Assembly (NCBI GenBank): GCA_022425945.1 | Contig: JAKMEK010000092.1 | Coordinates: forward strand, 1-64,000 | Direction of reading: 5' to 3' | Source: Flavobacteriaceae bacterium | GTDB lineage: Bacteria; Bacteroidota; Bacteroidia; Flavobacteriales; Flavobacteriaceae | Length of the DNA stretch: 64,000 nucleotides | Part shown: positions 47,043 through 62,575 of the stretch, one piece after another | How the letters are laid out: each line of letters opens with the position of its first letter | Numbering within the stretch: position 1 is the stretch's first letter | Translations under genes and position numbers: made by a program | Notes under the pieces: generated by a model | What the model saw: only the letters and a program-made list of their open reading frames with translations | What the model was told of the DNA's origin: nothing | Databases searched by the model: none

Positions 47043-47160
47043 GCCTCTAGGCTCGTTCACATTAGCCGACAAAGATAGGCATTAAAAAGGATTAACTCTA
47101 CACATTTTTTTTTCAATTGATAGTCAACTGAATAAGTGCTAGAACGCTAAAGTTATCAAC

Positions 47161-47190
47161 AAAGTGGTATTTAGTGGAAAAAAGTGGTAA
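47161..47190 (+). promoter_or_regulatory. Three 10-bp direct repeats, putative MraZ operator
   Basis: AAAGTGGTAT, TTAGTGGAAA and AAAGTGGTAA follow each other without gap, with AGTGG on the same helix face in each. MraZ proteins of E. coli and Mollicutes bind arrays of short G-rich direct repeats (TGGGN or AAAGTG-type) in front of their own operon. The array ends 8 bases before a -7 box and 41 bases before the mraZ ATG, so binding would cover the promoter. Confidence 0.75.
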
Positions 47191-47198
47191 ATATCAAT

Positions 47199-47206
47199 TA
47201 TATTTG
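47199..47206 (+). promoter_or_regulatory. -7 box of the dcw operon promoter
   Basis: TATATTTG fits TAnnTTTG 25 bases before the mraZ ATG. No TTG lies at the -33 position, which is taken by the repeat array. The pattern suits a promoter controlled by MraZ. Confidence 0.5.
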
Positions 47207-47231
47207 ATCTAATCAATTGCAAGACGTTAGT

Positions 47232-47693
47232 ATGCAGCATTTTATTGGGACATATGAGTGTAAGGCTGATGCTAAAGGAAGAATAATGCTTCCTATGGCA
47301 TTAAAGAAACAGTTGTCGGAGAACCTCCGCGACGGTTTTGTGCTTAAGCGCGCCGTGTTTAACGGATGTCTTGAGTTGTACCCTTTGAAGCAATGGGAGT
47401 CATTGATGGAGAAGGTGAACCAATTGAATCGATTCAATAAAAAGAACAATGACTTTATACGTCGGTTTACGGCGGGTGTGCGTTTGATTGAAATAGATGC
47501 TACCGGCCGCTTATTGATTCCGAAGGATTTGATTATTCATGCCGGAATTAGCCGAGAAACGGTTATTTCCTCCGCGGTAAATATTCTAGAGATTTGGGAT
47601 AAGGAGCGTTATGAAGAGGCGATTAACGAGGCAACACTCGATTTTGGGGCATTGGCAGAAGAAGTAATGGGGGATAAAAATGAACAAGAGTAA
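47232..47693 (+). CDS. mraZ: Transcriptional regulator MraZ
   Basis: MraZ is an AbrB-like DNA-binding protein that opens the division and cell-wall cluster and regulates it. The 153-residue protein carries two SpoVT/AbrB-type repeats: GTYECKADAKGRIMLPMALK (about 5-25), and IEIDATGRLLIPKDLIIHAG with REVVI-like strands (about 85-110). The DxxGR signature is present in both (DAKGR, DATGR). I chose the ATG at 47232; the track start at 47217 is a TTG with no family support. Three GTGG repeats and a TATATTTG box lie just upstream, and rsmH overlaps the 3' end by 14 bases. Confidence 0.95.
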   Translation: MQHFIGTYECKADAKGRIMLPMALKKQLSENLRDGFVLKRAVFNGCLELYPLKQWESLMEKVNQLNRFNKKNNDFIRRFTAGVRLIEIDATGRLLIPKDLIIHAGISRETVISSAVNILEIWDKERYEEAINEATLDFGALAEEVMGDKNEQE

Positions 47694-48585
47694 TTACCAT
47701 GATCCGGTCCTACTTCAGCCGTCAGTAACGGCCCTAATCACTGACCCCGATGGTGTCTATGTAGACGCTACTTTTGGCGGGGGAGGGCATTCACAAGAAA
47801 TCTTAAATCAATTGTCTCCTAAAGGAAGGTTATATGCTTTCGATCAAGATCAAGACGCTTTTGAAAACGCTTTAAAGGATGATCGTTTTACGTTGATTGA
47901 GGCGAATTTCAGAGATTTAAAGCGCTATCTAAAACTTTATGGGGTGAAAGAGGTGAGTGGTGTTCTCGCTGATTTTGGCGTTTCTTCTCATCAATTTGAT
48001 GCTGAAAAACGTGGTTTTTCAATTCGCTTTGATGGGCCCTTGGACATGCGTATGGATCAGGAAGCGAGCTTGGATGCGAAAAAGATCGTAAATGAATATA
48101 GCGTACAAGCGTTGGCAGATTTGTTCAAGTTGTATGGAGAGTTAAGGGGGGCTTATCGCGTGGCAGAGCATATTGTTGCTGCAAGAGAAGAAGGGGTTGT
48201 TGCGACTACGCAGGACTTAATTGCAATTGTCAAGCCTCTAGTGCCTGAACGTTATTTGAACAAAACATTAGCGCAGTTATTTCAGGCTATTCGAATTGAA
48301 GTAAACCAAGAGCTAGAAGTGATTAAGCGCTTTTTAGAGCAAAGCATAGAAGTGCTTCAGCAAGAGGGGAGATTGGTTTGTATCTCCTATCATTCGCTTG
48401 AAGATCGTTTGGTTAAAAATATCATTCGAGAAGGGGTGGTAGAGGGGAAAGCGGAAGAAGATTTTTTTGGTAACCGTAATTGTCCTTTAAAGAAAATGGG
48501 AAAGCTTGTTGTGCCAGATGCTGATGAAATTAAACGGAATAATCGTGCCCGAAGCGCCAAACTTAGAATAGCAGAAAAAAGATGA
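47680..48585 (+). CDS. rsmH: 16S rRNA (cytosine(1402)-N(4))-methyltransferase RsmH
   Basis: RsmH (MraW) methylates N4 of C1402 in the ribosomal P site. The 301-residue protein has the SAM motif YVDATFGGGGHSQEIL (about 27-42), LYAFDQDQDAF, LADFGVSSHQFDAEKRGFS, RMDQ, the LAQLFQAIRIEVNQEL signature and CISYHSLEDRLVKN. It overlaps mraZ by 14 bases and ftsL by 4 bases. Confidence 0.95.
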   Translation: MNKSNYHDPVLLQPSVTALITDPDGVYVDATFGGGGHSQEILNQLSPKGRLYAFDQDQDAFENALKDDRFTLIEANFRDLKRYLKLYGVKEVSGVLADFGVSSHQFDAEKRGFSIRFDGPLDMRMDQEASLDAKKIVNEYSVQALADLFKLYGELRGAYRVAEHIVAAREEGVVATTQDLIAIVKPLVPERYLNKTLAQLFQAIRIEVNQELEVIKRFLEQSIEVLQQEGRLVCISYHSLEDRLVKNIIREGVVEGKAEEDFFGNRNCPLKKMGKLVVPDADEIKRNNRARSAKLRIAEKR

Positions 48586-48890
48586 ATCAACTACTGGCCT
48601 TTTTGAATATTGAGTTCTTGATCAAAGATGATGCACTGCGCAATTGGCGAATTCTTTTGTTTGTGTCATTTCTAGCCTTAGTGATTATTGCTAGTGGTCA
48701 CAGTGCGGATAGGAAAATATTTGAGATCGCTCAATTGAATAGTGATATAAAAGAAATTAAAAGTGAGTTTGTGGAGACGAGAGCACAGTTAATGCGCTTG
48801 AAGATGGAAACCAGGATAACGAAAAAATTAGCCGAAAAGGGTATAGGCCCAGCCGGCACACCACCGATAAAACTGATTCCGAAAAAATAA
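48582..48890 (+). CDS. ftsL: FtsL-like divisome membrane protein
   Basis: The 102-residue protein has one membrane span (about 26-42, ILLFVSFLALVIIASGHS) after a short cytoplasmic segment, followed by a coiled-coil region (QLNSDIKEIKSEFVETRAQL). The C-terminus ends KGIGPAGTPPIKLIPKK, a feature of the Bacteroidota FtsL-like family, which is often annotated only as S-adenosyl-methyltransferase by mistake. FtsL forms a divisome subcomplex with FtsQ and FtsB. Position between rsmH and ftsI supports the call. It overlaps both neighbours. Confidence 0.85.
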   Translation: MNQLLAFLNIEFLIKDDALRNWRILLFVSFLALVIIASGHSADRKIFEIAQLNSDIKEIKSEFVETRAQLMRLKMETRITKKLAEKGIGPAGTPPIKLIPKK

Positions 48891-50878
48891 TGGAACAACA
48901 GAAGCAAATAATGAATCGCTTTTACCTCTTTGTTTTGGGGCTTTTCTTGTTTGCCTTTGTGTTGATTGGAAAGCTGATTTATATTCAAACTCAAGAGGGG
49001 GACTATTACCGTACTTTGGCGGAACAGCGAACAGTAAAAAATGTAATTCTACAGCCAAGCCGTGGAAATATTTATTCGGATGATGAAAGTTTGTTGGCAA
49101 CCACTGTTCCTCGTTATGAAATTCGTTGGGATGCGAAAGTGCCCAGTGAAGGTGCTTTTAACCAAAATAAAAAGGAGTTGGCGAAAGGATTGGCAGATGT
49201 TTTGGGCAACTCAGCCAATCACCAACTTTTAACTCTCGAACGAGCTAAACGAAAAGGAAATCGTTATACCCTCATCGGGCGAAATTTGACCTATTCGGAA
49301 TACAAGCAAATAAAAACATTGCCTCTTTTTTCTTTGCCATCTCTGCGAGGGGGGCTGATTGTGGAATCTAAACTCGTGCGTGAACACCCATTGGGAAAAA
49401 TTGGAGAGCGAACCATCGGCTATGAAAAGAGAGATGTAGCAGGAGATTACTTACGCGTTGGATTAGAAGGGGCTTACAGCCAGTACCTGAAAGGTGAAAA
49501 TGGTCGCAGATTAAAGCAGAAAATAGCCAATGGTCAATGGAAACCCATTAATGACAGTAACGAAAAAGAGCCTACAGAGGGCTATGATGTTTACACGACA
49601 ATCAATGTCAACTTTCAAGACATTGCGCACCATGCCTTGCTTCGTCAGCTAGAGCATTACGAGGCCGACCACGGAACTGTTGTGGTCATGGAAACAAAAA
49701 CAGGAGCCATTAAGGCAATATCAAATTTAGGTCGTACAGCCAAGGGTAAATATTTTGAAAAGCTAAACTATGCAGTCGGAACGACTTATGAGCCTGGCTC
49801 AACCTTTAAATTGATGGCCATGATCGCCGCCTTAGAAGACAAGGTTGCCAAGCCACAAGATTTGGTTGACACCAAAAAGGGTATCCTTACTTTTTACGGA
49901 AAATACAAAGTGCGCGATTCAAAAAAGGGTGGCTATGGTTTAATCCCTCTCTCTAAAGCTTTTGAAGTTTCTTCGAATACTGGAATCGTGCAGTTGATTC
50001 ATTCCAACTACAAAAAACAACCCCGTAAGTTCATTGATCGTTTATATAATATGGGGCTTAATGAGAAGCTTGGTCTTGCCATTTCTGGGGAAGGGCAACC
50101 AAGAATTCCGTATCCCTCCGATGAAAATTGGAACGGCATTACCCTGCCCTGGATGGCTTACGGTTATGGCGTTGAGCTTACACCTCTTCAAACACTTACA
50201 TTTTACAATGCCGTTGCAAATGGCGGTGAAATGGTTAGGCCACGCTTTATAGATCGTATCAATTCTTTGGAAAATGAAACGGTTAAGCATTTTGAAAAAG
50301 AAGTAATCAATCCTTCCATTTGTTCGCAAGAAACGATTGAAAAAGTTCAAAAAATGATGTTCAATGTGGTGGATAAAAAGTGGGGTACGGGTTATGCTAT
50401 CAAAGACGAGACTTTTACGATGGCAGGAAAGACAGGTACTTGTCAGGTAGATTACACCTCAGATGATGTGCAATATATCTCCAGTTTTGTAGGGTATTTT
50501 CCTGCAGAAAAACCCGAATATTCTTGCATCGTTTTGATTTATAAGCCCAACAAAAGCAAAGGCTATTACGGTGCTACCGTTGCAGCGCCAGTCTTTAAGG
50601 AAATTGCTAAAAAAATGTACTATTCTACTCCAGTAGAAATGATGGTTGAGTTAGATGCTTTGGAGCAATCCAGTGAAGATAATCCTTCAGTAGAAGAATT
50701 GGTGCTCGCCAATACTATTCCAAATTTGAAGGGAATGCCAGCAATGGAGGCGCTTTCGCTTTTGGAGCAAATGGGGCTTAAGGTCACCTTGAAAGGAAGT
50801 GGAAAAGTAATTCGCCAATCCATCAAATCTGGTAAAAAAGTTAAGCCCAATACAACCATATTACTTGAATTATCATGA
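48890..50878 (+). CDS. ftsI: Penicillin-binding protein FtsI (PBP3-type transpeptidase) with PASTA domain
   Basis: FtsI is the septal peptidoglycan transpeptidase. The 662-residue protein has a membrane anchor (about 8-27), a dimerisation domain (VILQPSRGNIYSDDESLLATT) and the transpeptidase domain with all three motifs: SxxK in YEPGSTFKLM (about 305), SxN in FEVSSNTGIVQL and KTG in MAGKTGTCQV. A C-terminal PASTA domain (about 610-662, NLKGMPAMEALSLLEQMGLK) is present, which is uncommon in Proteobacteria but usual in this phylum. It shares a base with ftsL and overlaps murE by 4 bases. Confidence 0.94.
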   Translation: MEQQKQIMNRFYLFVLGLFLFAFVLIGKLIYIQTQEGDYYRTLAEQRTVKNVILQPSRGNIYSDDESLLATTVPRYEIRWDAKVPSEGAFNQNKKELAKGLADVLGNSANHQLLTLERAKRKGNRYTLIGRNLTYSEYKQIKTLPLFSLPSLRGGLIVESKLVREHPLGKIGERTIGYEKRDVAGDYLRVGLEGAYSQYLKGENGRRLKQKIANGQWKPINDSNEKEPTEGYDVYTTINVNFQDIAHHALLRQLEHYEADHGTVVVMETKTGAIKAISNLGRTAKGKYFEKLNYAVGTTYEPGSTFKLMAMIAALEDKVAKPQDLVDTKKGILTFYGKYKVRDSKKGGYGLIPLSKAFEVSSNTGIVQLIHSNYKKQPRKFIDRLYNMGLNEKLGLAISGEGQPRIPYPSDENWNGITLPWMAYGYGVELTPLQTLTFYNAVANGGEMVRPRFIDRINSLENETVKHFEKEVINPSICSQETIEKVQKMMFNVVDKKWGTGYAIKDETFTMAGKTGTCQVDYTSDDVQYISSFVGYFPAEKPEYSCIVLIYKPNKSKGYYGATVAAPVFKEIAKKMYYSTPVEMMVELDALEQSSEDNPSVEELVLANTIPNLKGMPAMEALSLLEQMGLKVTLKGSGKVIRQSIKSGKKVKPNTTILLELS

Positions 50879-52335
50879 ATAAGCTAAAAGACCTATTGTT
50901 TGGTGTTCGTCTTGAGGCAGTTCAGGGAGATACAGATTTGCCCATTACTTCTGTTGCTTTTGATTCTCGTAAAGTAAAAGAGGGCGGCCTTTTTGTCGCG
51001 ATTAAAGGAGAGGTGGTCGATGGGCACGACTATATTCAAAAAGCGATAAGCTTGGGTGCGATTGCAATTGTGTGTGAAAATAAACCCAAGAATGCTTCGG
51101 AAGATGTTTTGTGGGTTACTTCGTCGAATAGTCGAGAGGCTCTGGCAATCATCGCGTCTAATTTCTATGATACACCTTCGTCCAAATTAAAATTGATTGG
51201 GGTAACTGGAACCAATGGAAAAACTACTGTATCTACCTTGTTGTATCGTTTATTTGAGAAAGCTGGTTATGCCTCTGGTTTATTGTCAACCATTGCAATA
51301 AAATACAACTCAGCAGATATTCCAGCAACACATACCACGCCAGATCCGTTACAAATTAATGCTCATTTGAATACAATGGTAGAAGCAGGGGTTGCTTATT
51401 GTTTTATGGAGGTTTCCTCTCATGGCATAGATCAGGATCGCATTAAAGGATTGGTTTTTTCCGGAGGGGTATTTACAAATCTATCACATGATCATCTGGA
51501 TTATCACAAGACGTTTGCGGAGTATCGAAATGTTAAAAAGCGATTCTTTGATCAATTACCAAAAACCGCTTTTGCGTTGACCAATGCTGATGATAAGAAT
51601 GGGGCATTTATGCTCCAGAACACCATGGCTACCCATAAATCATTTGGCCTAGAGAATTATGCGGATTATCAAGCAAAAGTGTTGGAAACTCAATTTACGG
51701 GTATGTTGTTGAAGATAAATCAGCAAGAAGTGTGGACTAGCCTTGTGGGTGGATTTAATGCGTCGAATTTAACCGCAGCTTACGCTGTTGCTCAAGAATT
51801 AGGGATCGCACCCATGGAAACCCTAGCAATGATAAGTGAACTAAGCAATGTAAAAGGGCGTTTTCAAACCTTAGCCACTCCCAATAAGGCAACCATAATA
51901 GTAGATTATGCGCACACTCCTGATGCATTGGAAAATGTTTTATTCACTATTCAACAAATACGAACCAAGAACGAAACCCTAACTACTTTGGTGGGTTGTG
52001 GTGGAAATAGAGATCAATCTAAGCGCCCAATGATGGGGAAGGTGGCTGCGCAATTGAGTGATAAAGTAATCTTTACGGCGGATAATCCACGTGATGAAGA
52101 TCCAGAATTGATTATTGATGCAATGGAAGCGGGTGTAAGCCCAGAGAACTACAAGAAAACCCTCCGCATTACGAATCGAGAACAAGCGATTAAGGCGGCT
52201 TGTATGACGCTGACAGCGGGAGATGTCTTGTTGATTGCTGGTAAAGGACATGAAAACTACCAAGAAATAAAAGGGATTAAATCGCCATTTGACGATTATT
52301 TAATCGCCCAAAAAATATGTAAACAACTTTTTTAA
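50875..52335 (+). CDS. murE: UDP-MurNAc-L-Ala-D-Glu--meso-DAP ligase MurE
   Basis: MurE adds the third amino acid to the peptidoglycan precursor. The 486-residue protein has [19 protein letters not shown], the P-loop [18 protein letters not shown], the carbamylated-lysine region [22 protein letters not shown] and the C-terminal [11 protein letters not shown]. The DNPR motif is the marker of meso-diaminopimelate specificity, so this organism should have mDAP-type peptidoglycan, in line with Mpl. It overlaps ftsI by 4 bases; mraY starts 1 base after its stop. Confidence 0.95.
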
Positions 52336-52336
52336 T

Positions 52337-53554
52337 ATGCTGTATTATTTGTTTGACTTTTTAGAAGCACAATACCAATTTCCCGGAGCAAGTCTGTTTC
52401 AGTTTTTGTCTTTCCGTGCTGCGGTTGCTGCGATGATTTCTTTGGTCTTTTCGACCTTGTATGGAAAGACAATCATTGATTTCTTGGCTAAACAGCAAAT
52501 TGGGGAAAGTATTCGTGATTTGGGTCTTGTTGGCCAAAAAGAAAAAGCAGGTACACCTACTATGGGTGGGATCATGATCATTATTAGTACACTGGTTCCC
52601 GTATTGTTGTTAGCGCGAATAGATAATATCTACATCCAACTTTTGCTTTTTACCACAGTGTGGATGGGTGCTATAGGTTTTATCGACGATTACATCAAGA
52701 TTTTCAAAAAAGATAAGGAAGGACTCAAGGGTAAATTCAAAGTTTTGGGGCAAATTTTATTGGGAATAGTCGTTGGTGCTACCCTCTATTTTCATCCAGA
52801 AGTTACTGTTCGACAAGAGGTGCCCCCTAATCAAACAGTTGTTGCAGAAGAGCGATCATCGTTCAAGGCAGATGAAAAATCGACGATTACCACTATCCCA
52901 ATGTTTAAGAATAACGAATTTGATTACGCAGATCTAATTGCTTGGATTCCGGGTGCTAAGTCATGGGCATGGATCATCTTTATTCCCATTGTCATTTTTA
53001 TTGTTACAGCTATTTCAAATGGAGCCAATCTTACTGATGGTATTGATGGACTTGCTGCGGGTAGTTCCGCAATTATGGTTTTTACCCTTGGCATTTTCGC
53101 ATGGGTTTCTGGAAATGTTATTTTCTCTGATTACCTCAATATAATGTATATACCAAATGCGGGAGAGATTTCTGTTTTCGTTGCTGCATTCCTAGGGGCA
53201 TTGATTGGGTTTCTATGGTACAACACTTATCCTGCACAAGTTTTTATGGGCGACACAGGGAGTTTAACCATTGGAGCAATCATTGCTGTTATTGCAATCA
53301 TGATTCGAAAGGAGCTTCTCCTTCCACTCTTGTGTGGAGTGTTCTTGGTTGAAAATTTATCTGTCGTTCTTCAGGTAAGCTATTTCAAATACACCAAAAA
53401 GAAAACGGGCGTTGGGAAGCGAATTTTTCTTATGTCCCCGATTCATCATCATTATCAGAAAATGGGCTACCATGAGAGTAAAATTGTTGCTCGTTTTTGG
53501 ATTGTCGGTATTTTATTGAGCATACTAACCATTGTAACCTTAAAACTGCGTTAA
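52337..53554 (+). CDS. mraY: Phospho-N-acetylmuramoyl-pentapeptide-transferase MraY
   Basis: MraY links the precursor to undecaprenyl phosphate, forming lipid I. The 405-residue protein has about ten membrane spans. Key motifs are [26 protein letters not shown] (catalytic Asp pair), [22 protein letters not shown] and the HHH motif in [16 protein letters not shown] soluble insertion between spans (about 153-190, [19 protein letters not shown]) makes it longer than the E. coli enzyme, as in other Bacteroidota. Its stop overlaps the murD start (TAATG). Confidence 0.95.
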
Positions 53555-54888
53555 TGAAAAAGCTAGTCGTTTTAGGGGGAGGTGAAAGCGGGAAAGGAAC
53601 AGCTATTTTAGGTCATCAACTGGGCTATGATGTGTTTGTGTCTGATGCTGGATTAATCTCTTCTGAAGTGAAAACACGACTAGATTCTATCGGGGTTTCT
53701 TGGGAAGAAGGACAGCATACAATGGATCGTATTTTGACGGCAGACATTGTGATGAAGAGTCCTGGTATACCCAACCACGTTCCGCTCATCAAGCAATTGC
53801 GTGTAGCAGGAATTAGTATTCAATCTGAAATTGAATTTGCAAGTCAACACACTCCAGCCAAGTTAATCGGTATAACAGGGAGTAATGGTAAAACAACTAC
53901 GACACTTTTAATACATCATATCCTAAAAGAGGCAGGGCTTAATGTCGGTATTGCAGGAAATATTGGTGAAAGTTTCGCTCAAAAAGTTGCTGAAAATGAT
54001 CATGACTTTTATGTCTTGGAGATCAGTAGCTTTCAGCTAGATGATATTCAAACTTTTGCACCTGAAATTGCTGTTATAACCAATATAACGCCCGATCATC
54101 TGGATCGTTACAATGATGATTTTTCGCTTTACATAAAATCAAAGTTGCGAATAGCGGCCAATCAAAATCCAAACCAGTTTTTGCTTTTCAACGCAGACGA
54201 TCCTGTGTTGGTAGAGGCGTTAAAGTCGTCTTCTACTGTTGCAAAGAAATTGCCCTTTGGGTTCACTAATACATCGCCAATTGGAGCATCCTATGCGAAC
54301 GAAGAAATTAAACTAATTGAACAAAAATCCACCACTATGATATCTACAACTCAATTTCCTTTACAAGGAAGACACAATTTACTCAATGCCATGGCAGCAG
54401 TCTCTGTAGCTCGCCTTTTGGATGTTAGTAAAGATTCTATTCGTGAAAGTTTGTTAAGTTTTACCAAGGTAGAACACCGTTTGGAACGCGTGTTAAAAAT
54501 TCAAAACAGAACCTACATTAATGATTCTAAGGCAACCAATGTAAATGCTACTTTTTATGCCCTAGAAAGTATGGAAGGACAAACGGTTTGGATTGTTGGT
54601 GGAGTAGATAAAGGAAATGACTATGCTGCCCTTTTGCCTTTGGTTCGAGAAAAGGTTAAGGCAATCGTTTGCTTGGGGGTAGACAATGAAAAAATTATCG
54701 ATGCTTTTTCACCGGTTGTTGATTTGATGGTTGAGACAGAATCCATGAAAGAGGCCGTAAAAATTGCCCATAAGATAGCAGACAAAAAAGAATATGTTTT
54801 GTTGTCACCGGCTTGTGCTAGTTTTGATCTTTTTGAAAATTATGAGGATCGTGGAAATCAATTTAAAGCAGCAATTCGCGAATTATAA
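53554..54888 (+). CDS. murD: UDP-MurNAc-L-alanine--D-glutamate ligase MurD
   Basis: MurD adds D-glutamate. I used the ATG at 53554, which gives 444 residues starting [20 protein letters not shown]; the track start at 53497 lies in mraY. The P-loop is GITGSNGKTTTTLLIHHIL, followed by EISSFQLDDIQTF, NITPDHLDRY, KVEHRLERVL and the C-terminal NDSKATNVNATFYALES with SPACASFDLFENYEDRGN. It is joined to mraY by TAATG and shares its last base with ftsW. Confidence 0.95.
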   Translation: MKKLVVLGGGESGKGTAILGHQLGYDVFVSDAGLISSEVKTRLDSIGVSWEEGQHTMDRILTADIVMKSPGIPNHVPLIKQLRVAGISIQSEIEFASQHTPAKLIGITGSNGKTTTTLLIHHILKEAGLNVGIAGNIGESFAQKVAENDHDFYVLEISSFQLDDIQTFAPEIAVITNITPDHLDRYNDDFSLYIKSKLRIAANQNPNQFLLFNADDPVLVEALKSSSTVAKKLPFGFTNTSPIGASYANEEIKLIEQKSTTMISTTQFPLQGRHNLLNAMAAVSVARLLDVSKDSIRESLLSFTKVEHRLERVLKIQNRTYINDSKATNVNATFYALESMEGQTVWIVGGVDKGNDYAALLPLVREKVKAIVCLGVDNEKIIDAFSPVVDLMVETESMKEAVKIAHKIADKKEYVLLSPACASFDLFENYEDRGNQFKAAIREL

Positions 54889-56090
54889 TGCAAAATAAAC
54901 CCAAACTCATACAAGGTGATTTAGTGCTGTGGGGAATCCTGGCTTTGTTGGCTTTGTTTTCTTTTTTTCCTGTATTTAGTGCGAGCTCCAACTTGAGCTA
55001 TGTTGTCGGAAATGGGACGCCTTGGGGGCATTTGTTCAAGCATATGTTCATTTTGGTGATGGGTTTCGTTTTCATGATCGGAATGCACAAAATTCCCTTC
55101 CATTATTTTAAAGGAATATCAATTTTGTTGCTTCCTGTAGTGGTGGTCTTGTTGATTTATACGGTATCACAAGGAACCATGATAGGTGGTGCAAATGCTA
55201 GTCGATGGATCCGTATCCCATTTGTAGGAATTGGTTTTCAGACCTCTACTTTAGCCTCGCTGGTTTTAATGATGTATGTGGCGCACTATTTGGATAAAAA
55301 TAAAGATAAAAACCTTCGGTTTAGTCAAACCTTAGTTCCGCTTTGGTTGCCCGTGGGGATCATTCTTGCTTTGGTATTGCCAGCGAATTTATCTACGGCA
55401 GTCATTGTGTTTGCCATGGTGTCTTTACTTGCTTTTTTGGGAGGATATCCAATAAAGTATTTATTGGTCATTTTTGGTGTGGGTATCTTGGGTTTTGTCA
55501 TGTTTGTATTGGCCGCAAAAGCTTTCCCAGAAAGTATGCCCAATCGTGTCGATACATGGATCAGCAGAATTGATAACTTTCGTGAACCCACTTCGGGGGC
55601 TGATGGAAATTATCAGGTAGAACGCGCAAAAATTGCCATCGCTACAGGGGGGGTAACAGGCTTGGGCGTTGGTAAAAGTGTCATGAAGAATTTTCTACCG
55701 CAAAGTAGTTCCGACTTTATCTATGCCATTATTGTGGAAGAATTTGGATTAGTGGGGGGTGTGACCATCATTTTGTTGTATCTGCTCATTCTTTTTCGCA
55801 TCATTATCATTGCACATAAAACCACTTCGGTTTATGGAAAATTATTGGTTATGGCCGTCGGTTTGCCGGTCATCGTTCAGGCTTTCATTAATATGGGGGT
55901 CGCCTTAAATGTTTTTCCAGTTACTGGACAAACATTACCTATGGTGAGTAGCGGGGGGACTGCTGCATGGATGACCTGTATCGCTTTTGGAATAATCCTA
56001 AGTATAAGTGTGGCTCAAGAAAAATCTTCTCAAGAAGAAGAGGAAATTAATGAAGAAAACCCATTAGCTGTATTAAGTGAAGCAATCTAA
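54888..56090 (+). CDS. ftsW: Septal peptidoglycan glycosyltransferase FtsW
   Basis: FtsW is a SEDS-family polymerase that works with FtsI at the septum. The 400-residue protein has about ten membrane spans. The SEDS signatures GGANASRWIRIPFVGIGFQ, VLPANLSTAVIVFA, the extracellular loop with the catalytic Asp region NYQVERAKIAIATGGVTGLG, QSSSDFIYAIIVEEFGLVGG and GQTLPMVSSGGTAAW are present. It shares one base with murD and overlaps murG by 14 bases. Confidence 0.95.
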   Translation: MQNKPKLIQGDLVLWGILALLALFSFFPVFSASSNLSYVVGNGTPWGHLFKHMFILVMGFVFMIGMHKIPFHYFKGISILLLPVVVVLLIYTVSQGTMIGGANASRWIRIPFVGIGFQTSTLASLVLMMYVAHYLDKNKDKNLRFSQTLVPLWLPVGIILALVLPANLSTAVIVFAMVSLLAFLGGYPIKYLLVIFGVGILGFVMFVLAAKAFPESMPNRVDTWISRIDNFREPTSGADGNYQVERAKIAIATGGVTGLGVGKSVMKNFLPQSSSDFIYAIIVEEFGLVGGVTIILLYLLILFRIIIIAHKTTSVYGKLLVMAVGLPVIVQAFINMGVALNVFPVTGQTLPMVSSGGTAAWMTCIAFGIILSISVAQEKSSQEEEEINEENPLAVLSEAI

Positions 56091-57177
56091 TTACATCGTA
56101 TCGGGAGGGGGGACTGGCGGCCACATCTATCCTGCATTGGCCATTGCAAATCAAATCAAAGTAGTGGATCCAAACGCCTCAATTGTTTTTGTTGGCGCCT
56201 TGGGGAAAATGGAAATGGAGAAAGTTCCTCAGGCTGGCTATGTTATTCATGGAATTTGGATTTCGGGAATTCAGCGAACGAAGCTGTGGAAAAACCTATT
56301 CTTTCCGTTTAAACTTCTAGTTAGTTTTTTTCAGGCACTGGTTATTTGGTTGCGTTATCGACCCCAAATTATGATAGGAACCGGAGGTTTTGCTAGCGGA
56401 CCAATGTTGTTTGTGGGTGGTCTTATGGGGAGCAAAACATTTCTACAAGAACAAAATTCATATCCCGGCATAACGAATAAATTATTGGCTAAAAAAGCCA
56501 AGGGGATTTCTGTGGCTTACCCAAATATGGAGTGTTATTTCCCAAAGGATAAAATACATTACACAGGAAATCCAGTGAGGGAATCTCTTTTGAATGTTGA
56601 AGCTCTTCGGGAAAAAGGATTGGCGCATTTCGATCTAGATCCCGATAAAAAAACACTGGTTGTACTTGGTGGGAGCCTTGGGGCTAGAGCCATAAATGAA
56701 TTGGTTGCCAAACATGTTGACATGTTTTTAGAATTGGATCTTCAGCTTGTTTGGCAGTGTGGTAAAATGTATCATAATGAATATGTTTCCTACAGTTCAG
56801 AAAAGCTAAAGATTCATTCTTTTGTCAAAGAAATGGATTGCCTCTATGCGGCTGCAGATGTTATTATCTCTAGAGCAGGTGCCTCCAGCATTTCTGAATT
56901 AGCCATAGTGGCAAAGCCACTAATTTTAATTCCTTCTCCAAATGTGGCTGAAAATCATCAGCACAAGAATGCGCAGGTTTTGGAGGAAAGGGGGGCTGCT
57001 ATTTTGTTGAGTGAATCTGAGGCTATGACAACATTTCCATCTGTACTTAAAGCTTTGCTAGATTCTACAGAGCAGCAAATGAGCATGACTGAGTCCCTGC
57101 GAAAAATGGCGCTTCCTACTGCCACCAAAACGATTGTTAAACATATACAAGAATTAGTTTCCTCTCATGCAGAATAG
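56077..57177 (+). CDS. murG: Undecaprenyldiphospho-muramoylpentapeptide N-acetylglucosaminyltransferase MurG
   Basis: MurG adds GlcNAc to lipid I to give lipid II at the inner face of the membrane. The 366-residue GT-B protein starts with the glycine-rich loop IVSGGGTGGHIYPALAIA and contains GTGGFASGPML, FLQEQNSYPGITNKLLAKKA, YTGNPVRESLL, VLGGSLGARAINELV, ISRAGASSISEL and the acceptor region VAENHQHKNAQVL. The start is GTG at 56077, inside ftsW, which fits the family N-terminus; the gene overlaps murC by 11 bases. Confidence 0.95.
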   Translation: MKQSNYIVSGGGTGGHIYPALAIANQIKVVDPNASIVFVGALGKMEMEKVPQAGYVIHGIWISGIQRTKLWKNLFFPFKLLVSFFQALVIWLRYRPQIMIGTGGFASGPMLFVGGLMGSKTFLQEQNSYPGITNKLLAKKAKGISVAYPNMECYFPKDKIHYTGNPVRESLLNVEALREKGLAHFDLDPDKKTLVVLGGSLGARAINELVAKHVDMFLELDLQLVWQCGKMYHNEYVSYSSEKLKIHSFVKEMDCLYAAADVIISRAGASSISELAIVAKPLILIPSPNVAENHQHKNAQVLEERGAAILLSESEAMTTFPSVLKALLDSTEQQMSMTESLRKMALPTATKTIVKHIQELVSSHAE

Positions 57178-58495
57178 TACATTTTATTTTATCGGTATAG
57201 GAGGGATTGGGATGTCTTCTATTGCTCGTTATCTAATTGGATTGGGCGCAAAAGTCGGAGGATATGACAAAACTCCTTCGGCGATTACGGCTTCCTTGGT
57301 CGATAATGGAGCATGCATTACTTTCGATGAAGGGGTAGCGGCTATTCCTAGTGCTTTTAAACAAAAAGAAACTCGTGTGATTTTCACACCTGCAATACCT
57401 GCCAATCATTCGCAATTGCAGTTTTATCAAAAGCAGGGCAACAACTTACTAAAACGCGCTGCTTTTTTAGGAGAAATAACAAAAGAAATGTCAACGCTAG
57501 CGGTTGCTGGAACACATGGAAAGACAACAACGACGTCAATATTAGCTCACTTCTTTTTGTGTTTAGATTCGCCTTTTACGGCTTTTGTGGGTGGAGTTAT
57601 GAATGCGCAGCAGACCAATTTAATCTCAACGGGCAATAGGGTTGCTCTCGTAGAAGCTGATGAATTTGATCGGTCTTTTTTAGCCCTTTCACCAAAAATA
57701 GCTTGCATTACTTCTACCGATGCAGATCATTTGGACATCTATGGGACGGCCGAAGAATTATCCGATTCCTATCGCGCTTTTGGGGAAAGGGTGAGCGATG
57801 TGCTTGTCCTTGAAAAACGGGTTCCTCTCGATGGAGTTACGTATAGTATTTATGAAAAGGCCGATTACTTTATAACTGCGATTAGGCCAGAAGGGTTCGG
57901 TTATCGTTTTGATTTGCAATCTCCTAAAGGAAGCTATGATGATCTTTATTTCAGCCAACTGGGTTTGCATAATCTCTCGAACGCATTGGCTGCTTTTGCA
58001 ATGGCAAGTGAGTTTGGCTTAAAAGAGCAGTTGCTTACCAAGGCCTTCGGAAGTTTTGAAGGAGTGAATCGAAGATTACAATTGATCGTAGAAAATGATC
58101 AACATGTGTTGATCGATGATTATGCGCACCATCCAACTGAAATTAATGCAGTCTTTGAAACCCTTGAAAATGCCTATCCTGATGAGCAGAAAAGTGTAAT
58201 TTTTCAACCGCATTTGTTTACGCGTACACGTGATTTTATGGATGATTTTGCTGCGTCTCTATCTCAGTTTGATGAGGTTATATTGCTCTCTATATATCCT
58301 GCTCGTGAACTGCCGATTCCTGGAGTTGATGCAGAAGCCTTGGCCAAAAAAATCGATTCTAAGAAGACGGTTACTGTGGTTGAAAAAGACCAATTGCTTC
58401 AAAGGGTTAAAGGCTTAACACCCCGTGTTAAAGTGGTCTTGGGTGCTGGAGATATTGGACTTGAAGTTGAAAAAATAAAGCAAATACTAGCCTGA
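57167..58495 (+). CDS. murC: UDP-N-acetylmuramate--L-alanine ligase MurC
   Basis: MurC attaches the first residue, L-alanine, to UDP-MurNAc. The 442-residue enzyme has FIGIGGIGMSSIARYLIG, the P-loop AVAGTHGKTTTTSILAH, ALVEADEFDRSFLALSPKIA, TSTDADHLDIYG, NRRLQLI and DDYAHHPTEINAVFETL, then IFQPHLFTRTRDFMDDFA. These motifs separate it from Mpl at 32 kb. It overlaps murG by 11 bases, and ftsQ starts 1 base after its stop. Confidence 0.95.
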   Translation: MQNSTFYFIGIGGIGMSSIARYLIGLGAKVGGYDKTPSAITASLVDNGACITFDEGVAAIPSAFKQKETRVIFTPAIPANHSQLQFYQKQGNNLLKRAAFLGEITKEMSTLAVAGTHGKTTTTSILAHFFLCLDSPFTAFVGGVMNAQQTNLISTGNRVALVEADEFDRSFLALSPKIACITSTDADHLDIYGTAEELSDSYRAFGERVSDVLVLEKRVPLDGVTYSIYEKADYFITAIRPEGFGYRFDLQSPKGSYDDLYFSQLGLHNLSNALAAFAMASEFGLKEQLLTKAFGSFEGVNRRLQLIVENDQHVLIDDYAHHPTEINAVFETLENAYPDEQKSVIFQPHLFTRTRDFMDDFAASLSQFDEVILLSIYPARELPIPGVDAEALAKKIDSKKTVTVVEKDQLLQRVKGLTPRVKVVLGAGDIGLEVEKIKQILA

Positions 58496-58496
58496 G

Positions 58497-59204
58497 ATGA
58501 AAACAACGAATAAGCTATTCTTTATATTCGTTTCATTCCTACTTATAGGAATAAGTGGATTTGCTGTATTCAAATCTAATCAACGTACTGTCAGTAGTTT
58601 AGATGTTTTGTTTAAAGAAAATGAAGCACGATTTTTATCTTCAGAAATCGTTAATAAGATGTTGATACAAAGCAACGACAGTTTGTTGTTTAAGCAGAAA
58701 GATGTAGTAGCTTTGAAAGTAATGGAGCAACAATTGTTGGCACACCCAATGATTGAAAATGTTCAATTATACACTATTCCGCAAGGAGAATTATTTGTAG
58801 AGGTCGAAGAAAGAACCCCAGTTCTTCGTGTCATAGGTAAGAAGTCGTTTTACATCGACAATACCGGTGCTAAAATGCCTTTATCAAAGCGATATACAGC
58901 GACAGTTCCCTTGTATTATGGTGCCATCGAAGACGCAAATTTGAAGCAGGTGTTGGCTTTGGTTGAGGCGGCCGGGAATGATTCTTTTCTTCAGCAAGAA
59001 ATGATTCACTTGAAGATGGAAAACAATCAATTGGTAATGGGATTACGATCTCATCCTTTTGAAGTTATTTGGGGGAAAGCAAATGGTTTTGCAGTTAAAG
59101 TAAACAAACTTAAACGTGTGTGCGCTTACTACACCAATACCGAGCTTTCACTGCCCGTGAGATTAAATTTAACCTATTCGCAACAAGTAGTTGCGAGCTA
59201 TTGA
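58497..59204 (+). CDS. ftsQ: Cell division protein FtsQ
   Basis: The 235-residue protein has one N-terminal membrane span (about 6-25, KLFFIFVSFLLIGISGFAVF) and a periplasmic part. A POTRA-like domain is suggested by MEQQLLAHPMIENVQLYTIP and GELFVEVEERTPVLRVIGKK. The FtsQ domain follows with SFYIDNTGAKMPLSKRYTAT and a C-terminal beta region. It links FtsL/FtsB to the divisome. It is poorly conserved in sequence, but position between murC and ftsA and topology make the call safe. Confidence 0.88.
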   Translation: MKTTNKLFFIFVSFLLIGISGFAVFKSNQRTVSSLDVLFKENEARFLSSEIVNKMLIQSNDSLLFKQKDVVALKVMEQQLLAHPMIENVQLYTIPQGELFVEVEERTPVLRVIGKKSFYIDNTGAKMPLSKRYTATVPLYYGAIEDANLKQVLALVEAAGNDSFLQQEMIHLKMENNQLVMGLRSHPFEVIWGKANGFAVKVNKLKRVCAYYTNTELSLPVRLNLTYSQQVVASY

Positions 59205-59211
59205 CTAGGAT

Positions 59212-60531
59212 ATGGAAAATAACAAAATAGCCGTTGGCTTAGACATTGGAACCACAAAAATTGTGGTTATGGTCGGCCAAAAAAATGAGTTTGACAAAGT
59301 TGAAATTCTTGGAATCGGGAAGTCCAAAAGTTTAGGTGTTCATCGCGGTGTGGTGAACAATATCACCCAAACTATTCAGTCCATTCAGCAAGCTACACTA
59401 GAGGCTAATGCAAAATCTGGCCTAGATATTAGTGAGGTAGTAGTAGGGATTGCGGGGCAACATATCCGCAGTTTGCAGCACAGCGACTACATAACACGAG
59501 AAAATGCTGATGAGGTAATCAATGAGCAAGATATTGAAACCCTAATCAACCAAGTCTATAAGCTTGTAATGCTTCCAGGTGAAGAAATCATCCATGTGCT
59601 TCCTCAAGAATATAAAGTGGATGGTCAAGCAGAAATAAAAGAACCTATCGGAATGTACGGTGGACGTCTAGAAGCTAATTTCCATGTGGTTGTTGGACAG
59701 GTTTCCTCCATTAGAAATATTGGTAGATGTATTAATAGCTCTGGCCTCGAAATGGGAAACATTACCCTTGAGCCGATTGCTTCATCTGACGCTGTTTTAA
59801 GTCAAGAAGAAAAAGAAGCTGGTGTTGCTTTAATCGATATAGGTGGGGGAACAACAGATCTGGCCATTTTTAAAGATGGTATCATTCGTCATACAGCAGT
59901 TATTCCTTTTGGTGGTAACGTTATTACAGAAGACATCAAAGAGGGATGCTCAATCATTCAAAAGCAAGCCGAGTTGTTAAAAGTGAAGTTTGGTTCTGCT
60001 TGGCCAGGAGAGAATAAAGAAACGGAAATTGTTTCCATCCCTGGACTCCGTGGAAGAGATCCCAAAGAAATTTCATTAAAAACACTTTCAAAGATTATCA
60101 ATGCTCGTGTTATTGAAATCATAGAACAGGCCTATTTAGAGATAAAAAATTATGGTCACGATGACCAAAAGAAGAAACTCATCGCCGGTATCGTTTTGAC
60201 CGGAGGAGGAAGCCAATTAAAACACCTGAAACAGTTGGTCGAATACATTACTGGAATGGATACTCGTGTGGGCTACCCCAATGAGCATTTAGCAGGTGAT
60301 ACCGATGAGCAAACCACAAGTCCAATGTTTTCAACAGCGGTTGGACTATTGATGGCTGCCCTAGAAAAAGCCCCTGCTGAAACACTTTCTGCAGCGCCAA
60401 ATGCTGAGGGAGAAGAGGGAGCTGATGTGCAGGAAAATGAGATTTTGCCAGCACCAGCACTCACGAAAAACAGAAACTCTGTCCTCGAAAGATGGACAGA
60501 TAAGTTTAAAGAATTTTTGGACAAAGCTTAA
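59212..60531 (+). CDS. ftsA: Cell division protein FtsA
   Basis: FtsA is an actin-like ATPase that anchors FtsZ to the membrane. The 439 residues show the phosphate 1 motif AVGLDIGTTKIVVMVG, the 1C domain, phosphate 2 ALIDIGGGTTDLAIFKDG and the adenosine motif GIVLTGGGSQLKHLKQL. The C-terminus ends with an amphipathic helix, RWTDKFKEFLDKA, expected for membrane binding. It lies 7 bases after ftsQ and 10 bases before ftsZ. Confidence 0.95.
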   Translation: MENNKIAVGLDIGTTKIVVMVGQKNEFDKVEILGIGKSKSLGVHRGVVNNITQTIQSIQQATLEANAKSGLDISEVVVGIAGQHIRSLQHSDYITRENADEVINEQDIETLINQVYKLVMLPGEEIIHVLPQEYKVDGQAEIKEPIGMYGGRLEANFHVVVGQVSSIRNIGRCINSSGLEMGNITLEPIASSDAVLSQEEKEAGVALIDIGGGTTDLAIFKDGIIRHTAVIPFGGNVITEDIKEGCSIIQKQAELLKVKFGSAWPGENKETEIVSIPGLRGRDPKEISLKTLSKIINARVIEIIEQAYLEIKNYGHDDQKKKLIAGIVLTGGGSQLKHLKQLVEYITGMDTRVGYPNEHLAGDTDEQTTSPMFSTAVGLLMAALEKAPAETLSAAPNAEGEEGADVQENEILPAPALTKNRNSVLERWTDKFKEFLDKA

Positions 60532-60541
60532 ATAATACAAC

Positions 60542-62575
60542 ATGAGCGAAGAAACCACGGATAACATATCAGGGAACTTTAATTTTGATTTACCCAAAAA
60601 CCGATCGAATGTGATAAAGGTTATTGGTGTAGGTGGGGGAGGAAGTAATGCCATCAATTACATGTTCCAGCAAGGAATTATTGGTGTTGACTTTGTGGTC
60701 TGCAATACCGACGCCCAAGCTTTGGAAAAAAGTAGTGTTCCAATTAAAATTCAATTGGGTGCCTCGCTTACCGAGGGTCTAGGCGCCGGAGCCAATCCAG
60801 AAGTAGGACGTCAGTCCGCACAAGAAAGTGTTGATGCCTTGCACGATTTGCTGTCTACTCAAACAAAAATGGTTTTCATCACTGCTGGAATGGGAGGTGG
60901 AACCGGAACAGGTGCTGCTCCAATTATTGCCAAAATGGCCAAAGAGATGGGTATTTTAACCGTTGGGATTGTTACCATGCCTTTTCAGTTTGAAGGAAAA
61001 ATACGCTTGGAACAAGCGCAGCGAGGGATGGAAGAAATGAAGTCCAATGTCGATTCGCTAATTGTCATTAATAACAATAAACTACGAGAGGTGTATGGTA
61101 ACCTTGGTTTTAAAGCTGGATTTGCTAAGGCTGATGAAGTATTGGCAACCGCTGCTAAGGGGATTGCCGAGGTAATTACACACCATTATACGCAAAACAT
61201 TGACCTTAAGGATGCAAAGACTGTTTTAAGCGACAGTGGATCAGCCATTATGGGATCTGCTTCTTCAGAAGGAGAGAATCGCGCGCAAGAATCAATTGTA
61301 AAAGCATTGGATTCGCCTTTGCTCAATGATAACAAGATCACAGGTTGTAAAAATGTACTCTTGCTGATCGTCTCGGGTGAAGAAGAAATTACCATTGATG
61401 AGATTGGTGAAATAAATGATTACATCCAAAACGAAGCAGGGAACAACACCAATATTATCATGGGAGTTGGAGAAGATCCTGCGCTTGGAAACAGTATTTC
61501 GGTGACCATTATCGCTACTGGTTTCGATTCGGAACAGCAATATGAAATTGTGAATACAGAGGCGAAGAAAATCATTCATGCACTTGAAGAAGATCAAGCT
61601 TTGGTTCACGACTTAACACAGTCGCCTGCTAATCTCGAAACCATTTTTGACACTCCCTTGGAAAAGGTGACCGAAGAAGCTGTAGTGAAGTATACTTTGG
61701 AAGATGAAGCAGAGGAAACGCAGATTCAAGATGAAGTTATGGAATCAGACATGCGTTTTTCGTTGGAAGAAAAAGAAGAAGAGATTTCTCAAGAGATGAT
61801 CAATGAAATTGAGGTAAATGGGCATGAGGAAGTGATCCCTTTATCTGAGATTGAAGTAGTGTCAGAAGTGGTTCCGCCCGAACAGTATATGCCTGCTACG
61901 GCAACCATTGCCGCTGTGGAAGTGAATGAACCAGTTTTTGTGGAATTCAAATTACCAGCGGAAGAAAACTTGAGTTCTATGGAAGTTGAAGATGAGTTTG
62001 TTTTCAATGACATTTCAGCTTTGGTTAATGACATAGAAGTTGTTGCACCAACCCTAGTTGAAGACGAGGAAAAGCAGCAAATCGAATTTGAATTTGAATT
62101 GCCGCTGAGTGCCTCCAGTACAACGGAGGAAGCATCCTCAATTGCTTCTCCTGAAGCAGAGACAGTATTTCAATTAGATGATCATTTTTCTGTTACACCA
62201 TCGCTCAAAGAACTTGAAGAACCAACTGAAGAAGCTATCGATTTTAAAGTAGTCGAGAAAACAGTCTTACCAGTTGGTGATACACAACCCATTTCTTCCT
62301 CGTCTACCAGTCCTTTTGATAAATCCATAGAGGAAAGTATTAGTCAGGAAAATGAAAAACGAAAAGAGCAGTTAAAGCAATTCAATTATACTTTTAAAAA
62401 CAAAATAAATCATATTGAGGAAATGGAGCGTCAGCCCGCCTACAAGCGTTTAGGTTTTGAACCAGACGAAGCCTTGGAGGAGCAATCGCCCTCGACCTTA
62501 AGCCTTGATGCAGACAGCAACGATGATATTCAGTTGCGCTCCAATAATTCATTTTTACACGATAACGTAGACTAA
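60542..62575 (+). CDS. ftsZ: Cell division protein FtsZ with long acidic tail
   Basis: FtsZ is the tubulin-like GTPase that forms the division ring. The globular part (about 1-335) has [14 protein letters not shown], the tubulin signature [16 protein letters not shown] and the T7-loop region [16 protein letters not shown]. The full protein has 677 residues, far more than the 383 in E. coli. Residues about 370-600 are a Glu-rich, low-complexity linker. The end reads [14 protein letters not shown] and finally [13 protein letters not shown], a form of C-terminal peptide seen in Flavobacteria. It is the last clear division gene of the cluster; yqeY follows after 2 bases. Confidence 0.95.

Follow-up and report, generated by a model that had tools for sequence, protein, structure and literature searches.

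MraZ is among the most widespread bacterial regulators and has been little studied outside a few model bacteria. The MraZ box of E. coli, for which PMC8475190 and PMC7761207 cite Eraso et al. (2014), reportedly lies at the promoter Pmra. A sequence check of the region upstream of E. coli K-12 mraZ (locus L268) revealed the repeats GTGGGAAATT-GTGGGGCAAA-GTGGGAATA, with GTGG at positions 291, 301 and 311 on the strand of the gene. This array begins 37 bp downstream of where TTGACA starts, immediately past the −10 box. In Burkholderia cenocepacia, MraZ binding to PmraBc was detected by EMSA, and the site consists of four 7-nt repeats with 3-nt spacers, which follow the −10 box and cover the transcription start (PMC7761207). 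The Mollicutes site, AAAGTG[T/G] according to Fisunov et al. 2016 as cited in PMC8475190, also consists of direct repeats, and in M. genitalium its sole occurrence is reportedly at mraZ. In both E. coli and M. genitalium, MraZ acts as a repressor of the cluster, and overexpression of MraZ in Mycoplasma gallisepticum was accompanied by raised FtsZ (PMC8475190). A search of the open-access literature yielded neither binding nor expression data on a Bacteroidota MraZ.

Here, we analysed the region upstream of mraZ in a 64,000-nucleotide stretch of DNA from a Flavobacteriaceae bacterium, referred to as the window. MraZ operators can be recognised by at least two G-rich direct repeats that have a GTG(G) core and a 10-bp period and precede mraZ in the orientation of the gene, and this arrangement is found in the window. 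As at E. coli Pmra, there are three copies of a GTGG core; the 10-bp period is also that of the Burkholderia site, and the window's heptamer AAAGTGG is almost identical to the Mollicutes heptamer. The window differs from E. coli in its spacers, which are less G-rich, from Burkholderia in having three repeats instead of four, and from Mollicutes in promoter type. It differs from both E. coli and Burkholderia in location, with the array upstream of the −7 box and over −33. By its letters, the array belongs to an already known type of site and shares its GTGG core with E. coli.

Organisation of the mraZ promoter region

The promoter and the genes behind it comprise the following features, all on the plus strand of the window.

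47153–47161, plus strand: nine-base, DnaA-box-like element TTATCAACA, predicted −58 to −50, ending 2 bp before the first GTGG
47161–47170, plus strand: putative MraZ box repeat 1, AAAGTGGTAT, GTGG at 47164 (−47)
47171–47180, plus strand: putative MraZ box repeat 2, TTAGTGGAAA, GTGG at 47174 (−37), overlapping the −33 region
47181–47190, plus strand: putative MraZ box repeat 3, AAAGTGGTAA, GTGG at 47184 (−27)
47199–47206, plus strand: −7 box TATATTTG of the Bacteroidota primary sigma factor type (consensus from PMC6847099 and PMC9723704)
47211, plus strand: predicted transcription start, placed at about this position from the −7 box by T−12/G−5 numbering (PMC6847099)
47232–47693, plus strand: mraZ, 153 aa, the presumed regulator binding the array
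47680–62575, plus strand: presumed target operon, rsmH (mraW) to ftsZ, with gaps of at most 11 bp

The sequence-only reading had described three contiguous 10-bp GTGG repeats beside a −7 box, placed where a −33 element would be. Both the coordinates and the letters proved exact, and because the three GTGG fall at predicted positions −47, −37 and −27, the array covers −33. The −7 box TATATTTG begins 15 bp past the start of the third GTGG. In flavobacteria, this box is numbered −12 to −5 and the −33 element is generally weak (PMC6847099); a TTTG −33 element is absent from the mraZ promoter in the window. AGTGG-N5-AGTGG has two overlapping matches in the window, both within the array, against 0.02 expected from shuffles. 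Genome-wide, three GTGG at a 10-bp period occur once in the organism's own assembly (1.83 Mb in 98 contigs), at the array itself, a count that is a lower bound because the assembly is only 85.7% complete.

G-rich repeats at the S. aureus mraZ promoter formed a G-quadruplex (PMC11796246), and an element of this kind, as proposed downstream of that promoter, is a very improbable explanation of the array described here. The conserved GT in front of each GG and the exact 10-bp period are needless for a quadruplex. An intramolecular four-tract structure is ruled out, since the strand has just three GG pairs from 47150 to 47210, and four G-tracts are therefore unavailable.

The neighbouring gene upstream, encoding an alpha/beta hydrolase, is divergent (46278 to ~47041, minus strand), and a −7-like box of its own was located by eye near 47068–47075, ~90 bp from the array. 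The second AGTGG-N5-AGTGG of the genome (C34:27865) lies between convergent genes with no promoter and was judged to be a chance match. A single AGTGG placed like repeat 3 before TAnnTTTG is found three times in the genome: at mraZ, at glmM and inside an open reading frame. At the glmM promoter (G000:C34:26440, L315), GTGG lies 15 bp before TATATTTG, the spacing of repeat 3, probably by chance. We considered such single-AGTGG sites too weak to claim an MraZ regulon beyond mraZ.

The mraZ gene starts at ATG 47232; a TTG 15 bp upstream is the start of the mechanically called open reading frame, and relatives use the ATG or its equivalent. The product matches PF02381 (1e-28) in two stretches, representing two SpoVT/AbrB-like MraZ domains, and aligns with the solved MraZ chains 1n0e (1.9e-15) and 9qlg (3.7e-15) over residues 4–135. 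Each half carries a DXXXR motif, DAKGR in the first and DATGR in the second. The first motif is D.KGR in all 81 MraZ proteins compared (the window's and those of its relatives), and the second, D..GR, is conserved in the alignment.

The gene is the first of the dcw cluster and is followed by rsmH/mraW (PF01795), an ftsL-like gene, ftsI, murE, mraY, murD, ftsW, murG, murC, ftsQ, ftsA and ftsZ, all on the plus strand; names other than mraZ and rsmH were assigned by reading translations. From mraZ to ftsZ, the genes overlap or are tightly packed, with a largest gap of 11 bp, which makes it plausible that this promoter drives the entire cluster. Separately, mraZ was undetectable in all nine sampled genomes of one family of the phylum, f24 (G226, G256, G283, G298, G301, G308, G328, G336 and G422).

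Conservation of the array and its association with mraZ

We assembled 80 loci of close relatives from a species-level genome collection, with MraZ 73–96% identical to the window's and mostly recorded as Flavobacteriaceae, Flavobacteriales or Bacteroidetes, giving 81 loci with the window. The pattern GTGG-N6-GTGG-N6-GTGG is kept in every one of them. TAnnTTTG starts 15 bp from the start of the third GTGG in 79 loci and 16 bp in the remaining two. Further upstream than the nine-base element and within the leader, the columns of this alignment are almost devoid of information; taken together, this is how selected protein-binding sites are conserved. A wider family sample of 29 genomes, picked by their MraZ protein and not by the array, has three GTGG in 27 and a partly degenerate array in two (L120 and L125), the latter counting against the operator model.

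The association with mraZ was also seen in genome-wide searches. The strict form, three AGTGG at a 10-bp period, is present in 39 of 201 family genomes, once per genome, and the backward-word control gave zero matches except in one genome (G145). All 30 of the family matches examined immediately precede mraZ and share its orientation. Across the phylum (100 mraZ loci from ~30 families), 75 loci have a GTGG pair at distance 10, 37 have one at distance 20 and 12 at distance 30, and every other distance is found in at most 8. At distance 10, the reversed word GGTG scored 2 and the shuffle 0.25. When GTGT or ATGG is allowed as a unit, at least two units are found at 94 of the 100 loci. A similar array was seen in most of those inspected among 12 further loci with very divergent MraZ. 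In 15 genomes without detectable mraZ, three GTGG with A/T-rich spacers were not found; the matches in those genomes have G/C-rich spacers. On the opposite strand, CCAC pairs at distance 10 occur in 16 of the 100 phylum upstream regions (L144–L243), which may reflect shared ancestry within a family or boxes on that strand.

A/T-rich intergenic DNA does contain short repeats, and a chance or low-complexity repeat without function is an explanation to which we give practically no credence, refuted as it is by the conservation, the spacing statistics and the association with mraZ. Judged from sequence comparison, the array is with near certainty an MraZ box, the operator to which the regulator encoded in the cluster itself would bind. 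The sequence-only reading had proposed this identity and had tied it to conservation of the repeats in close relatives and to AGTGG at a 10-bp period upstream of mraZ in other Flavobacteriales. The proposal is supported by the fixed spacing in 81 of 81 loci, by the 39 family genomes with all 30 examined matches upstream of mraZ, and by the shared core and period in E. coli. Its further suggestion of a Bacteroidota version with its own sequence stands for the A/T-rich spacers and falls for the core, which is GTGG as in E. coli.

Placement of the array and mode of regulation

The position of the array relative to the promoter varies between classes. In families f1–f11, which belong to the window's class, the −7 box lies downstream of the array wherever it is recognisable, and the distance from the start of the last GTGG to the start of the −7 box is usually ~15 or ~25 bp, values one helical turn apart. 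Loci of the other classes have a TTGAC −35 element ahead of the first GTGG, at 36–39 or 28–31 bp in the great majority, and the array begins at or just past the −10 box. Taken from consensus promoters and not from mapped starts, this comparison suggests that the operator changes promoter side between classes and keeps its helical phase with the promoter. Placement downstream of the −10 box, of the E. coli and Burkholderia type, is seen in some members and does not define the operator. What is lineage-specific is confined to the A/T-rich spacers, the location of the array with respect to the promoter and the additional TTATYAACA element.

The best overall explanation, to which we assign a probability of about 85%, is that the three GTGG over −33 form an operator for MraZ, most likely for autorepression of its operon. 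An MraZ oligomer would occupy all three GTGG cores, which follow one another at one-turn intervals on the same side of the helix. It would extend from about −47 to −24 of the sigma-A type promoter (TATATTTG), repeat 2 coinciding with the −33 region. Bound in this way, MraZ would exclude RNA polymerase, and mraZ and the downstream genes would be autorepressed. Binding by the window's own MraZ, repression over activation and control of the whole cluster as far as ftsZ are inferred.

Because the operators of E. coli and Burkholderia lie across the promoter from the array described here, the sign of regulation is not transferable from them. Where a good −33 element is lacking, an array spanning −47 to −24 might also suit an activator: MraZ bound over −33 would replace the missing element and recruit RNA polymerase. 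This reading is the less likely one, and it is nevertheless a serious rival because the array is upstream and there is no −33 element. The midpoint of the array falls near −36, a TTTG −33 element is absent, and the helical phase to the −7 box is fixed, with whole-turn shifts between families (~15 or 25 bp), as protein–protein contact would demand; raised FtsZ upon MraZ overexpression in M. gallisepticum points in the same direction (PMC8475190). However, flavobacterial −33 elements are weak as a rule (PMC6847099), the MraZ proteins of E. coli and M. genitalium are repressors (PMC8475190), and competition between polymerase and MraZ for one face would also give a fixed phase. We weighted repression against activation at roughly two to one, and autorepression of the operon by covering −33 is the most likely mode of action.

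A nine-base element resembling a DnaA box

A conserved element accompanies the array on its upstream side. In 80 of the 81 loci, TTATYAACA is separated from the first GTGG by exactly 2 bp and reads TTATTAACA in 56 and TTATCAACA in 24; the sole exception, L095, reads ATATTAACA. In the wider family sample, the element is found in 28 of 29 genomes, 26 of them with the same 2-bp gap. An exact DnaA box, TTATCCACA, is carried by L143, and one flipped copy is present in L008. The window's TTATCAACA has one mismatch to TTATCCACA, and its position 6 (A) deviates from TTATNCACA. The looser word TTWTYMACA, on either strand, lies within 70 bp upstream of the array at 22 of the class's 36 loci (shuffle mean 1.1, maximum 5) and in 8 of 10 families, the family count being the safer one because loci within a family are related. 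In one family, f4, TTATCCACA or TTTTCCACA is found at a fixed −37 in 5 of 8 loci.

The arrangement is compatible with a dual-input promoter, in which TTATYAACA at −58 to −50 would be a DnaA box, and DnaA and MraZ would jointly set dcw transcription. This reading, which adds to the MraZ operator and is compatible with it, is held tentatively, at somewhat less than even odds. It is favoured by the fixed 2-bp distance to the first GTGG, the recurrence of the element in the wider sample, the exact box in L143 and the DnaA-box-like words upstream of the array in most families of the class. DnaA acts on ftsL, ftsZ or dnaB in other bacteria, and DnaA boxes are likewise found at division-gene promoters in B. 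subtilis (ftsL), E. coli (ftsZ) and C. crescentus (ftsZ) (PMC8203912). The window differs from these DnaA-controlled genes in its fixed arrangement with an MraZ array, which recurs in the class, and in being DnaA-box-like by sequence.

Other genes of family genomes, named by reading translations, bear related words that also speak for DnaA input. TTATYMACA pairs, mostly two helical turns apart (20-bp spacing), lie upstream of dnaB (L255, L250 and L259) and between fmt and the HU gene (L248, L251, L254, L257 and L258), and an inverted pair lies upstream of gyrB (L262). Together, they suggest a possible replication regulon.

Against DnaA input, position 6 departs from TTATNCACA, as described above, and TTATYMACAA has no genome-wide excess (54 versus 49 in the control). 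In one Flavobacteriaceae genome, the origin has been reported at mnmG (PMC12843772), and with the oriC position taken from that genome, no consistent TTATYAACA cluster was found within ~10 kb of mnmG in most genomes examined, with weak clusters in a few. At the dnaA gene, too, the genomes examined have no consistent DnaA-box cluster. The probability given to a DnaA identity was held below one half because of the missing genome-wide excess and the missing mnmG cluster; DnaA input at the mraZ promoter is plausible on sequence grounds. Slightly more doubtful still is a composite switch common to the class, in which a DnaA box about one turn upstream of an upstream-shifted MraZ array would let replication status and MraZ feedback gate the division cluster.

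Two further palindromes were observed in family genomes. Sequences resembling parS, TGTTCCACGTGGAACA, lie near mnmG on either side in many of them (L274, L281, L282, L284 and others of L269–L298) and are consistent with an origin-proximal mnmG. The palindrome TTATTAACAATTGTTAATAA lies between rplS and a downstream isocitrate-dehydrogenase-like gene in three genera (L260, L265 and L267).

What appears to be new here is the lineage-specific placement of the operator and its companion nine-base element. A concrete operator and a predicted promoter are now available for a Bacteroidota MraZ, with an array that seems to switch promoter side between classes and to retain its helical phase. Coordination of replication initiation and division has been described as poorly understood (PMC8203912). 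The nine-base element may link replication initiation to the expression of division genes, and it renders this question experimentally approachable.
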